Positions 44,173 to 49,602 of a DNA stretch of 64,000 nucleotides are shown one piece after another; position 1 is the first letter of the stretch; each line of letters opens with the position of its first letter. The stretch is from NCBI GenBank assembly GCA_029009155.1, contig JAQXJX010000016.1, positions 1 through 64,000 on the forward strand. The letters run 5' to 3'. The notes beneath the pieces were generated by a model. It ran no database searches, was not told the origin of the DNA, and saw only the letters and a program-made list of their open reading frames with translations. This stretch comes from Mycoplasmataceae bacterium (GTDB lineage: Bacteria > Bacillota_I > Bacilli_A > Mycoplasmatales > Mycoplasmoidaceae). A program made the position numbers and the translations under genes.

Positions 44173-45060
44173 TTAGTTTGAATTTTTAATATGTTCTAAA
44201 AAAGAAGATATTGTTTTGTTTTGAGCATTAGTTATACTGATTTCTAAATTCATTTCCTTTAAACCGTTTTCTTTTTTTATTTCAATTTGAGGTAATAAAT
44301 CTTCATCTATTAAAATGTATTTGTTTTCAATTTCATTAAAATCAATTGTTCATGAATCAATTTCCTCTTGATAAAATTTATACAGCTGTTTTCAATCATC
44401 AAGTTGTTTGCTTAAATATTCATTTTTATTTTTAATTTTTTCCATAATTTGAATTATGTTATTTTTACCATGAACTTTATTAATTAAAAAACCAATAAAT
44501 ATACAATCTTCTTGACTCATTTGTCTATAAGATGTCATGAAAGTTTTTTTATAATTTGAGATAACTTTTATATCTACATATTTTTTTATATTGTCAAAAT
44601 AAAAATCATATAAACTTTTTTCAGTAAGTTGATAATGTTCAAGATAATTTATTTTATTTTCCTGTAGCAATAAAATAAATGAGAATTCAGCCAAGTCACC
44701 TAATAATTTTTCTTTTAATAAATATTTATGTTTTTTTGAAGAAAAATAATCACTAGTAAAATATAGTAAATCATCAATTGTAATTTTATCATTTTGATCA
44801 AGTAGATCCTTGATGTACTGAATCATAAAAGTTTCTATAAAAAGAATTTTTTGCTTATCTAAATTTTTAAACTTAAAAAGTGAAACTTTTATCTTGTCAT
44901 TGGGATCATTATCTCATACTAAGTTTTCACTAGAAATTCATTCGATGTTTTCTAATTTTTTTGGATTCGATGTATTACTAACGTATTTTTCATCAATTCC
45001 ATATGTTATATATCCTTCTTGTTTATTTGATCTTTCTTTAATATAGTATATTGTTGTCAT
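44173..45060 (-). CDS. PD-(D/E)XK-motif nuclease-like protein (DUF4420 type)
   Basis: Fourth gene of the putative defence operon. The central region follows the DUF4420 / PD-(D/E)XK motif protein pattern: KLLGDLAEFSFILLLQEN (residues 118-135, acidic residues Asp122/Glu125), YDFYF with Asp152, then VDIKV with Asp163 and Lys165 as the D-x-K pair, and DCIFIGFLINKV after it. The N-terminal 78 residues would be a small beta domain. In related systems this protein accompanies a GHKL ATPase and a Z1 helicase and is presumed to cut DNA. Length 295 residues. Start ATG 45060 lies 23 bases inside the Z1 gene and follows AAAGGATT. TGA codons encode Trp. Confidence 0.72.
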
Positions 45061-46552
45061 TTTTCAATCCTTTATATGTAAGTTTACAGTGTTTAAAATT
45101 TTTTTGAAATTCTTTTAATTTTCTTCTAATATCACTAATGGAATATTTGAATTGTGAGTTTTTAATAAATTTAACCACTTCATTTACTTCTTTTAAAGTT
45201 TCCATGATTTTTTTGTTAATTACAATAATCATGTTTTTATACCTATCATCTTTTTTTCTGTATCCAAATCATCTACAACGTTGCAATAATGTGTCGGCAG
45301 TAGTTGTTTTTTCATCATAAGGTGAATTTATCATAATTTCGGTTAATAAATTTTCAAAGGTACAACCTCTTGATAATAAATTTCCTCCAATTATGATTGA
45401 ATATTCATAATTGTTAATCTTTGAAATATTAAAATTTTCTTTTTTTTGTTCAGAATTTAAAACCACAATAGATTCTTTATTTTTATCAAAATATGGAATA
45501 ATTTTTTTTCAAATTCAATCAAAAATATTATCTATTAAATCTTTTTTGTTGGTATCAATTATTTTAAATAAAGATGCATATTTTTTTAAAATCTTTTCTA
45601 TTAATATTTGTGTAATGTCATTATCATTATTTTTAATTATTAATTCAATATTTTCTCTTATTATTTTTTCTATTTTTTCATGAGGAGAATTTTCTATACA
45701 AACATTAATTAAGAAAGACGATTTGTTATTTTCATTTTTATGTTGCTGAAAAAAGTAAGTAGTAATTAATCATACATAAAAATATTCTTTAATTATTTCC
45801 TTATTTCAACTATTTTTATTAAATAAATTATTATCAATATGGTAACAATTTATGCCATCATTCAAAAAAAATTCTGACCCACAATATTCAATAGGTGGAT
45901 TTAATATGTGAATTTTATCAGGATATAATTTGTCATTCTTGTCAGCCATTATGTTGGCAAATGGTGTTCCAGTAAATTGGATAAATTTTCCCTTTGATAC
46001 ATGAGATCAAATATCTTCAATTAATTTTTTTATTGCTTTATTGTTTTTATTCAGTTCTTTATTTGTTACTGATCCTCAATCACATTCATCATCAATTATA
46101 GCAATACCATTATTATTTTCATTATTTCATGGACCTGTCCAATTATTGGTTCCAATCACTTTGTAAATAAATTTTTCAATCTGTATAGTTCCTTTTAATA
46201 AGTTAAAAATATAAAATGTATTATCAAAATTTGGTGGATTTAGATTATTCTTTAAATCTTCATTTGATAAGATTTTTATATATTTATCTTGATATTTTTT
46301 ATTCTTCTTAAAATGTTGTTTTATTCTATTTTTAGTTTGATCAGTTAATAAATTAGTAGTGCCACCAAAAAGTATTAAATAGGAGTATTTAAGCTCTATA
46401 AGGTGTTCAATTTCTTTTATTATTTTTGATGTTTTTCCTGATTGAACTTCTCCAACAACTAATATTTTTTCTTTTTTATTATTTTTGCAAATTCAATCAT
46501 CTTTGCAAATATGATAATCGTCTCTGATTCTAATTTCATTAAATTTATACAT
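45038..46552 (-). CDS. Z1-domain superfamily-2 helicase/ATPase, 504 aa
   Basis: Third gene of the operon. Walker A GEVQSGKT (34-41), Walker B-like AIIDDECDW, motif III QFTGTPFANI, then the Z1 hallmark IGGNLLSRGCTFENL (389-402) and QRCRWFGYR (to residue 432, motif VI arginines). This fits Z1-type proteins, which in other bacteria are fused to or accompany a superfamily-2 helicase in restriction-like loci. Shorter than many Z1 proteins (~900 residues). Start ATG 46552 overlaps the ATPase gene by eight bases, and the end overlaps the nuclease gene by 23. TGA encodes Trp, including in RWFGYR. Confidence 0.82.
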
Positions 46553-48434
46553 GTTCTTCATCTTTAACTTTTTTTAATTCTTTAAGAATGCTTACAAAAA
46601 TCTCTTTTGGATCCATTGTTTTTAAATTATCAATTAAAGTTTTATAGTCTTCATAAATTTCATGGTTAATATCTTTAAGATCCCTAAGACCTTCATTATT
46701 TTCAGCATCAATATAAAATTGCAAAAATGAAACAATTATACATGTAGGTAAAAAAGTAAAACATAAATCTTTTCTATTTCTTTCTGAATCACTATTTTTT
46801 AAAAAATAACAACAATATTCATTTTGCTTGTTAACAAGAATTTGTATTGTTTTTTCTTTATAAAGGTGTTTAATCATGAAAGGATAAGAATTATCATAAT
46901 TTCATTCATTTTGATAAATAATTTCAAAATGAAATTCAACATCAAAAATTTTTAAAGAGATATTATCTATTTGTGTATTATTTTCGTCATAATGTGTTTT
47001 TGAATGTGTTATGGTAGGTAGACTTTTTGTAAATGAATCATTACGCTTTTTCAAGCTATTAGATGATTCTTTTTTTCCTTGATCTTCAAAATATTTTTCT
47101 GTATCTTTTAGAGCATTTAATATTTCTTTTATGTCAGAATATTTGCTTTTTCAAAAATTTTCTATATCATCACTAGTTTTATAACCACCATTAATAGATC
47201 CTCATTTAAAATCTTTCTTATTTCTTTCAGGAGATTCGATTCCTGTTAAATCAATTCATCCAAACATTCTTCTAATGGTATTATTTCCTCCATTGTTTTG
47301 ACCATTATTACTACAGAAATTTGCAAATTTTTCAATTCCATTGTCATTACCTAAATTAAAACCATGTTTAATACATCTATGCTTATGTATTAATGTAATC
47401 CCACACATTTCAAAATATGAATGATTAGAATTATTATTTTTACATTTATATCCTAATATTCCTCAATTAATTTTTATGTTTTTATTTATTTCAGGTATAT
47501 TTATAACATCATTAAAATATAGTTCCTTATTTGGATTTTTCAATAAATCAATTCAATTAGTAATGGAATTATTTTCCACATCAACACCATTCTTTTTACA
47601 TGTATTAATAAAGTGTTCATAAAATTTATCAGTAGATATATCAATGTTAGAATTTTCTGATTTAATATTATCTACTGTATTTTTGATACTATAAAAATTT
47701 TTAGGTATAAACCCCTCGACCTTTATATTTTCTTCTTCTTTTCCTATTGAATCAACATATTTAAAATTTATTTCTAAATTTTGCTCTTTAATTAACTGAT
47801 GATATCTTCAACCCAATCCATCAATTAATTCTTTTTTTAACTTTTTTACATTAGAAAAATGTCTTGTATTTAATGTTTCTTTAATTACTATTATTGTCCC
47901 AGATGTTAGTGAAGTAAGTTCATTATTACAAATATTATCATTTATAGTGTCTATGTGAAATTTTACAGGTTCTGATTTGTTTTTTTCATCATAATTGAAA
48001 TTAACATAATATTGTCCTTGAATTACATGATTAATAGGTTTTGTATAGATCTCAAATTTATTACCAAGTTGAAAAATTCCATATTTCATTCCAACTCCAT
48101 ATTGATTTAGATTATTATCACTTTTACCAAATACATATCCAGGTTGTAGTGCATTTTTTAATTCTTCATATGTCATACCACCTGCATTATCAACTATTTT
48201 AATCAAGCACTTGTTCTCATCAATATTAAAGTCAATTTTTAAACCTTTTACATCAATATCTTCAGAATCTTGGCTAATTTTTTTAATCTTAGAAGAATAT
48301 GAAGCAATTGAATTATCAATAAATTCAGAAAAAGAATAAATTTGACGTGATTCAACAGTTTGAAAATTTTTTACTAAGGCATCATATGTATAGTCTATTG
48401 AAAAAGTTTCGTTATCTTTTATCTTGCTTTCCAT
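46545..48434 (-). CDS. GHKL-family ATPase (MORC/Hsp90/MutL-like), 629 aa
   Basis: Second gene of the operon. The Bergerat ATP-binding fold is visible: N-box EFIDNS (37-42, catalytic Glu37, Asn41), G1 box IVDNAGGM (80-87), G2 box QYGVGMKYGIF (111-121), and a later SGTIIVIKE strand. The remaining ~400 residues contain a possible S5-like domain and a long C-terminal region with IRRMFGWIDLTGIESPERNKKDFKW, as in MutL/MORC-like ATPases of restriction-type loci. The start ATG 48434 overlaps the preceding gene's stop region (stop 48436-48438). It probably uses ATP-driven dimer closure on DNA, inferred from the family. Confidence 0.82.
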
Positions 48435-48435
48435 A

Positions 48436-49569
48436 TTAAATATATTCCTTTATTATTTTTGATCTTGTTTTTTGATCAATTTTTGTATTTGTTCTGTTCT
48501 CGATTTGATCCAATATTTTATTTAAGTTATTTAAAAAATTTTTATCACTGTATCATTCTTCAATCAACCTTTGTCTTTTATTAAAATATTCTTGGTATCT
48601 TTCATCTGGCACATTAATTTTAATACCAGCATCTGCAAGTGGTTTATACATGTTTATTTTTCCATACATATATTTTTTGTATAAACTTGGGTAGTGCTCA
48701 TATAAGAGTTCATATCTGCTTTTTGCTATTCCTTTTTCACTAAGTTTTTGCTCGAAACTTAAACCAAATCCACAAGCGATACATCCAGTTCTTAATCACC
48801 CCATATCATATGCTTTACTGTAGGGAATGTTATATTTTTTTATATATTTTCATATATCTTCATCCCGCCACAGGCTAATGGGCCTACATCTTAAACCATA
48901 AACAGATTCAAAAATACATCCGTTTTTTAATCAATTAGTTCTTCTTAATTGGGATTCAAAAACAGTTGTTCCATTAATTTGAGGTGTTTTGTTTGTTTTA
49001 ATTTTTCCTTTTAAATAAAAGCAACATTTATCAGTTAACTTATAGTCTATAAGTGTTTCATCTAAAAAATGAAGTTTACTTTTTGGAATTTTTCTTGATT
49101 TTTTTAAACCAAAGCACGCCAATGTTCAATTACCTAATGTTTTTGATGTTCTAACATTATTTATTTTTTCAGCCACTTCTTTAGATAAAACTGGATAACC
49201 AACATTATTTACAATTCATTCAAAATCATGATATGGTTTAACAAAAGTTGTATCATCAATTGTTTTTAAGAATTTAGCTATTTCTGGATGAAAAAGTTCA
49301 GCTGCTGTTAATGACTTTATATTGGGGTCAATTCTATGAACTAAATGCCTTACTACACAGCTATCCTTACCACCACTAAAAGCAATAATGGGTTTTTCAG
49401 TGTTAGATGATTGACATTGTTTTAAAAAACTTTTTATTCTAGATAAAGCAATTTTTTCTTTCTCTTCAAAAGTTAGTTCTTTCTCTTTATTAATTAAAAA
49501 GTCTTTTCTACTGTTTTGTTCAGATTTTAATATTTTTAAATCAAAAATATCAAGTGAGGATTTAGACAT
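48436..49569 (-). CDS. PAPS-reductase-family (DndC/BrxP-like) sulfur-transfer enzyme
   Basis: First gene of the operon. PP-loop pyrophosphatase motif IIAFSGGKDSCVV (SGGKDS at 65-70), a middle CC..LK element (KCCFYLKGK), RPISLWRDEDIWKYIKKYNIPY (family P...W...DVW.YI...N.PY) and a GCIACGFG Cys cluster after YDMGW. DndC, the BREX type-4 protein BrxP and IbrA-type proteins share this build; DndC activates DNA for phosphorothioation. Length 377 residues. ATG 49569 is preceded by GGAGG. TGA codons encode Trp. No DndB, DndD, DndE or cysteine desulfurase is near, so the exact reaction is unproven. Confidence 0.78.
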
Positions 49570-49602
49570 ACAACCCTCCACTTGTTAAATTTAAATTATT
49601 TT

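Follow-up and report, generated by a model that had tools for sequence, protein, structure and literature searches.

How does a restriction-type operon distinguish the DNA of its host from that of an invader if no DNA methylase stands among its genes? The question is raised by a row of four genes in a 64,000-nucleotide stretch of contig JAQXJX010000016.1 from a Mycoplasmataceae bacterium (GenBank assembly GCA_029009155.1), the whole of which is here called the window. The genes, named A, B, C and D, encode an enzyme resembling the reductases of 3'-phosphoadenosine-5'-phosphosulfate (PAPS), a GHKL ATPase, a helicase of superfamily 2 (SF2) with a Z1 domain, and a predicted nuclease. No DNA methylase is found among these genes or their neighbours. 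The answer towards which we lean, as the more probable one, is that this is a defence operon of the restriction-modification type, in which A would mark host DNA with sulfur, while B, C and D would attack DNA that is not so marked.

The argument begins with what stands in A's place elsewhere. Members of the Z1 family were sought in 84,980 genomes, and neighbourhoods were counted for the best 80 loci, considering those where a GHKL gene lies beside Z1 and a modification gene lies within 1.5 kb. Outside the Mycoplasmataceae, 28 of 28 such loci carry a C5-methylase and none carries A (C5-methylases being recognized by similarity to three Mollicute seeds, with some possibly overlooked). Inside the family, seven of seven carry A, and none carries a C5-methylase. 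One genome (G102) holds both kinds of locus, an A-B-C-D row and, elsewhere, a row of C5-methylase, GHKL and long Z1 genes.

The co-occurrence of A with B-C-D is strict. Among 95 genomes of the window's family, A is present in 36, a Z1 helicase of the type that accompanies A in 22, and the two together in 21 (Fisher test, 1.6e-10, for genomes that are akin and with kinship uncorrected). The sole genome that has such a helicase but no A (G174) carries its locus on a 5-kb contig that starts at B. Gene order, however, is not fixed. A comes first in the window and in L019, L021 and L024, last in L022, L025 and L068, and is divergent in L023 and L027; in G072, A and Z1 lie on different contigs, and both are retained. 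These varied orders, together with an unlinked A, are as one would expect if selection for function had kept the genes, rather than the inheritance of one block.

Other modifiers have entered the same slot. In a tree of Z1 helicases, a single Mollicute clade (support 100) unites loci that have A, an N6-type methyltransferase, a C5-methylase, Dam, or DndC; the tree, a quick one with several weak forks, requires at least four modifier swaps. In f5, a family related to the window's, the slot is filled by a C5-methylase, by Dam, or by a true DndC. This DndC stands directly before B-C-D in two more distant Mollicute genomes (G109 and G144, each complete in one contig), where it scores 339 and 325 bits against an NCBI cut-off of 290, and a genome-wide search of both found no DndD. 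Thus, a known phosphorothioation enzyme occupies A's slot. In G143, a second B-C-D locus (L026) has in A's place an N6-type methylase, assigned by its motifs and having no Pfam match.

An earlier reading of the letters alone (the sequence-only reading) had proposed that a sulfurtransferase here replaces the methylase. The survey, with its 28 loci set against seven, and the modifier swaps in f5 bear this out, and the view that A occupies the methylase slot of MORC-Z1-nuclease loci is, on these comparisons, well supported. The same reading would have been undone by a methylase or a full Dnd cluster beside the operon in related genomes, or by loss of co-occurrence among them. What is found is that A with B-C-D and without an adjacent methylase recurs across the family; that the only methylase near an A locus is a short open reading frame (ORF) of C5-methyltransferase type, about 6 kb away in L022; that DndD is absent from the 15 genomes searched (the window's own, G000, and 14 relatives); and that A accompanies its type of Z1 in the 21 of 22 genomes already mentioned.

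The genes themselves form an uninterrupted row on the minus strand, in the order A, B, C, D. A and B are spaced by 1 bp, B and C overlap by 17 bp, and C and D overlap by 23 bp; the end of a convergent P-type ATPase gene adjoins the end of D, with 3 bp between. The frames are intact only under NCBI translation table 4, where TGA encodes Trp; table 11 puts four to nine in-frame TGA breaks in each gene. This need to read TGA as Trp places the host among the Mollicutes. Its assembly holds 885,581 bases in 33 contigs, and the nearest named relatives that bear the operon are metagenome-assembled genomes (MAGs) of Mycoplasmataceae, Malacoplasma and Ureaplasma. The four genes, their abutting or overlapping ends, and the motifs quoted from them in the sequence-only reading (SGGKDS, EFIDNS, DNAGGM, GVGMK, GGNLLSRGCTFEN and RWFGYR) are all where that reading put them, with the refinement that C begins at 46561 and not at an internal ATG at 46552. 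An alternative in-frame GTG start for A lies at 49581. No Rfam family is found in the window, promoter-like sites are no more frequent than chance predicts, and nothing resembling a terminator lies within the operon. The operon is not a chance arrangement, because it recurs in many related genomes.

The one C5-methyltransferase match in G000 sits on another contig, C21. There, a C5-methylase gene (378 amino acids) and an overlapping partner of 380 amino acids (L251, G000:C21:426-2688) make a pair of the ordinary type II-like sort, with no linkage to the operon.

B, C and D form a recognizable module. The domains named for B and C in the sequence-only reading are recovered by Pfam, as is that of A. 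B matches HATPase_c_3 (2e-9), and its family profile ranks SMCHD1 (5.8e-12) and MORC3 (5.5e-9) above topo VI-B and Hsp90, with MORC2 also among the best solved relatives; B is a GHKL ATPase of the MORC/paraMORC kind. C matches Z1 (1.1e-22) and ResIII (1.1e-4), and its segment DTLLQRCRWFG fits DThhQxuRhFG, the signature of the Z1 helicases in MORC operons (PMC2292703). D alone finds nothing convincing in Pfam; the profile of its family, when compared with the DUF4420 "putative PD-(D/E)XK" nucleases of C5-methylase loci, matches them at an E value of 2.4e-15. G121, E125, D152, K165 and Q180 are invariant in the D alignment, giving the E-D-(D/E)xK pattern of the restriction fold. By these signatures, B-C-D is the third type of MORC operon described by Iyer et al. 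in 2008, where a MORC ATPase, a Z1 helicase bearing DThhQxuRhFG and a novel nuclease of the restriction fold stand together, usually accompanied by a cytosine methylase (PMC2292703).

A is harder to place. It matches PAPS_reduct at 1.5e-12, and across an alignment of 25 relatives Cys182-Cys183, Cys218 and Cys263-x-x-Cys266 are invariant, the pattern being CC-X79-CxxC. In adenosine 5'-phosphosulfate (APS) reductases, CC-X~80-CxxC is the ligand set of a [4Fe-4S] cluster. The AlphaFold2 model of A (mean predicted local distance difference test, pLDDT, 90) has CysH/APS reductase as its closest folds, followed by the sulfurtransferases TtuA and LarE. A is nonetheless not the CysH/APS reductase of sulfate assimilation, falling below all curated cut-offs, and profile scores rule out DndC proper, SspD and BrxP proper (the DndC equivalog TIGR03183 gives 15.5 bits against a cut-off of 290.4). 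Among PADLOC models the best match is BrxP, at 1.8e-11 for A and up to 1.4e-16 in relatives; of the 779 positions in the model, just two short stretches are matched, with no match at full length, and BrxP is thus a nearest relative in defence by a weak match. An origin from phage or plasmid was also rejected, the matches being distant, with identity of about 30% at most. A spread of A beyond the family was likewise rejected, strong matches occurring in only one of 395 genomes of the class, the window's own. The parallel to DndC drawn in the sequence-only reading thus concerns function and not sequence, given 15.5 bits against 290.

B-C-D is not the only partner of A. G000 has a second copy of A (C8:622-1860, 44-47% identical), and a DUF262 gene starts 2 bp after it. 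The same or a similar pair is found in at least eight genomes, G000 included (others are G108, G114, G140, G153, G156 and G157); in G148 and G194, A is paired with a different DUF262. On the tree of A, the partner must have switched between B-C-D and DUF262 at least four times. A profile built from four A-linked DUF262 proteins retrieves exactly five distinct sequences from the PDB, all of them DndI or SspE. DndI (9JFL) is matched over nearly its full length (5.7e-14); the rest are StSspE (6JIV and kin) and two DUF262 proteins of 818 residues, which by residue numbering are EcSspE, since their Tyr63 and Arg133 are residues named for that protein (PMC13251355). Invariant in the A-linked proteins are the Tyr that senses phosphorothioate (DndI Y25, EcSspE Y63), the NTPase Arg (R87, R133) and the HNH Asn (EcSspE N724). 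Phosphorothioate reading has been demonstrated for the DUF262 nucleases DndI and SspE (PMC11662687), and the pair in G000 is a candidate for a sulfur-based defence unit.

In two of these genomes, G108 and G140, A is split into two ORFs (L054:8892-10132, L056:9343-10555), while the DUF262 gene is still open. Those pairs may be decaying, or the splits may be assembly errors.

What, then, might A do? We infer that it acts on DNA, that its chemistry is a transfer of sulfur, and that B-C-D is directed at unmarked DNA. The tie between A and sulfur-marked DNA is drawn because A pairs with DndI/SspE-like DUF262 proteins, because DndC is found in A's slot, and because a source of sulfur is at hand: G000 has one cysteine desulfurase, on contig C22, in a SUF row beside SufC-, SufU- and SufB-like genes. 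A housekeeping cysteine desulfurase can serve known sulfur systems (PMC12839542). Here, the SUF enzyme (SufS) would hand sulfur to A, the PP-loop of A would use ATP to activate the acceptor, and the Cys cluster of A would pass the sulfur on to host DNA, with a backbone phosphorothioate as the simplest product. C would serve as a DNA motor powered by ATP, B as a clamp switched by ATP, and D as the nuclease; together they would scan DNA and cut what carries no mark, the Z1 motor and the nuclease cooperating as their counterparts do in CglI. In CglI, ATP hydrolysis by the Z1 helicase N.CglI is needed for the cleavage of unmethylated DNA (PMC4267653). The proposal of the sequence-only reading that this effector may distinguish DNA by a sulfur mark is indirectly supported by the A-DUF262 pairs and by the DndC that fills A's slot, while the mark itself is reached by inference.

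It is possible, and we advance it tentatively, that A is a stand-alone, one-protein enzyme for sulfur marking that dispenses with DndD/E and SspB/C, an exchangeable "sulfur methylase" of minimal genomes that is combined either with the MORC-Z1-nuclease module or with a DndI/SspE-like nuclease, with true DndC having been recruited independently to the same slot. The choice of target may fall to the C-terminal helical part of A (residues ~280-377) or to a small protein of helix-turn-helix (HTH) type.

Several observations count against sulfur marking by A. A reaches none of the curated cut-offs for DndC or CysH, and phage genes of the PAPS family with unproven roles are related to it. The motifs P-x-Y-Q-R and DGQQR are widespread in DUF262 proteins, including readers of modified cytosine, and are no proof of sulfur sensing; the DUF262 or GHKL protein could recognize another product of A. 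In none of the 15 genomes does DndD exceed its cut-off, fragments of about 20 bits being all that is seen, and no partner of DndD/DndE or SspB/SspC type is linked to A. Known phosphorothioation requires such an ATPase and a DNA-recognition partner, DndD with DndE or SspC with SspB (PMC12707154). DndE and DndB were not seen beside the operon, nor were BrxC, PglZ and BrxL recognized there, no genome-wide search having been made for any of these. DUF4007 (SspB-like) was unmatched in the 15 genomes, as were the positive controls. As for the MZA equivalogs, MzaB scores 13 bits (cut-off 850) and MzaC 61 bits (cut-off 1500).

There are other readings, some of which keep the DNA mark. SspE is active only where phosphorothioate is present (PMC13251355; PMC11662687), and A's partners include proteins like SspE and DndI; the mark might therefore arm an effector rather than only shield the host, with B-C-D or DUF262 sensing it and attacking incoming DNA. 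This is doubtful, since the methylase in the same slot ordinarily protects against homologues of B-C-D, as shielding would have it, and since the DUF262 partner, taken at full length, matches DndI best, a protein that the mark restrains and does not arm. Alternatively, the product might be a thiolated base, or some other PP-loop product in DNA, and not a backbone phosphorothioate. A is, after all, neither DndC nor SspD, and its model matches the base-thiolating TtuA and LarE, if only after CysH/APS reductase. Against this, two related systems have DndC where A would stand, and the other effectors that pair with A look like phosphorothioate sensors and nothing else; we regard a thiolated base as unlikely.

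A might also not modify DNA at all. PP-loop enzymes use many substrates, as the fold matches of A recall, and no DNA-recognition partner is linked to it; it could thus be a sulfur or nucleotide enzyme that acts on tRNA or on a small signal, regulating the effector or forming part of it, for example in abortive infection. Such a role is distinctly unlikely for a protein that exactly replaces DNA methylases and true DndC in one operon slot, and that swaps between two unrelated DNA-nuclease effectors. Last, 15 genomes of the family have A but no B-C-D (some are fragmentary), as if A were an accidental neighbour from another mobile gene set. This is very improbable, and is already contradicted by the presence of A in 21 of the 22 genomes with its type of Z1 (p 1.6e-10), where the gene orders differ and A is kept even without linkage.

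If the preferred reading, marking by A and attack by B-C-D, is set beside known systems, each shares a part of it. The MORC–Z1 helicase–NRE operons (Iyer, Abhiman & Aravind 2008, PMC2292703) have the three components B, C and D with the same signatures, whereas modification there falls to a methylase of cytosine or, rarely, of adenine, and not to a PAPS-reductase-like sulfurtransferase. BREX type 4 has a PAPS reductase in place of the methylase of other BREX types (PMC12839542), but its effector is BrxC/PglZ/BrxL, and A is half as long as BrxP. The Dnd (IscS-DndBCDE with DndFGH or DndI) and Ssp (SspABCD-SspE) systems share with the operon a sulfurtransferase of the PAPS-reductase family, a cysteine desulfurase elsewhere in the genome and, for paralogues of A, DUF262 effectors; unlike them, the window's system has no DndC or SspD by score, no DndD, no linked DndE, SspB or SspC, and a MORC-Z1-nuclease as its main effector. 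CglI and NgoAVII (C5-methylase, Z1 helicase, phospholipase D-type (PLD) nuclease) likewise join a Z1 SF2 helicase to a separate nuclease, but the window's operon lacks both the PLD nuclease and the methylase, and has a GHKL ATPase in addition.

BREX type 4 already provides a precedent for a PAPS reductase that replaces a methylase. The make-up of the operon is unusually minimal and modular. MORC–Z1 and sulfur systems have been described separately, and no paper that joins them was found among the open-access papers searched (subscription papers, preprints and supplements lying outside that scope). We know of no earlier work that links sulfur marks to ATPases of the MORC type, and of no earlier case of DNA sulfur marking in the Mycoplasmoidaceae. 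If the reading is true, it would supply the first such link known to us, would extend sulfur marking to this family, and would mean that one dedicated protein and a housekeeping cysteine desulfurase suffice for it, far fewer parts than known phosphorothioation systems use. Further, Nature has placed a methylase, DndC or A before one and the same effector, making directly testable whether the same motor-nuclease reads a missing methyl group in one case and missing sulfur in another.

Features of the operon in the window, and of related loci in other contigs and genomes
Feature	Position	Strand	Description	Basis
A	48436..49569	-	PAPS-reductase-like (PP-loop ATP pyrophosphatase) sulfurtransferase, 377 amino acids, SGGKDS loop	Pfam, alignment, AlphaFold2 model
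Ribosome-binding site GGAGGG	49574..49579	-	5' of A's ATG (49569)	sequence
B	46545..48434	-	MORC-type GHKL ATPase, 629 amino acids; EFIDNS, DNAGGM, GVGMK	Pfam, family profile
C	45038..46561	-	SF2 helicase with Z1 domain, 507 amino acids; VGEVQSGKT, DDECD, GGNLLSRGCTFEN, DTLLQRCRWFGYR	Pfam, Z1 signature
D	44173..45060	-	Predicted PD-(D/E)XK nuclease, DUF4420 type, 295 amino acids; G121, E125, D152, D163-x-K165, Q180	alignment, profile comparison
A + DUF262 (DndI/SspE-like) nuclease pair	L053:622-4034		G000:C8; two-gene unit, transposase-like fragment just upstream	
True DndC just ahead of GHKL-Z1-nuclease	L032:9770-11260; L033:6656-8083		G109, G144; two Dam-type methylases nearby	
A-B-C-D locus; tandem pair of GHKL genes, overlapping HNH gene	L057:4033-7430		G143:C51	
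HTH-like protein, examples	L058:7840-8202; L023:6323-6565; L025:14028-14291; L261; L265; L268			
PYKP HNH protein, examples	L021:2997-3977; L024:6644-7633; L057:8773-9702; L248; L249; L264			

Two further proteins accompany A in relatives. One, small, HTH-like and of 80-120 amino acids (MGWSNEKYYQQIVNGYK...PTINYIF), lies beside A in about a dozen loci and was not seen at the window locus; its copy in L058 has no Pfam or NCBIfam match, and it is possibly a regulator of A or its partner in target recognition. The other is an HNH endonuclease with a PYKP domain conserved at its N terminus, which adjoins A or B-C-D in at least eight genomes of the family and co-occurs with A in 17 of 20 genomes (p 2e-6). 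Pfam finds in it HNH_2 only, and its HNH part is akin to those of the modification-dependent VcaM4I and TagI. It was considered as a sulfur-binding endonuclease of the ScoMcrA type, and this was rejected as evidence for sulfur, since its AlphaFold2 model (pLDDT 79) matches the HNH parts of VcaM4I and TagI, and its matches include no sulfur-binding domain.

Elsewhere, a contig filed under "Bacteroidales bacterium" (L060, JAITXI010000070.1) carries a B-C-D of Mycoplasmataceae type that reads TGA as Trp, and is probably a mis-binned MAG contig. In genus g2, a GHKL-like gene and a long Z1 helicase form a conserved pair (L254, L255, L257) that no nuclease or modification gene adjoins.

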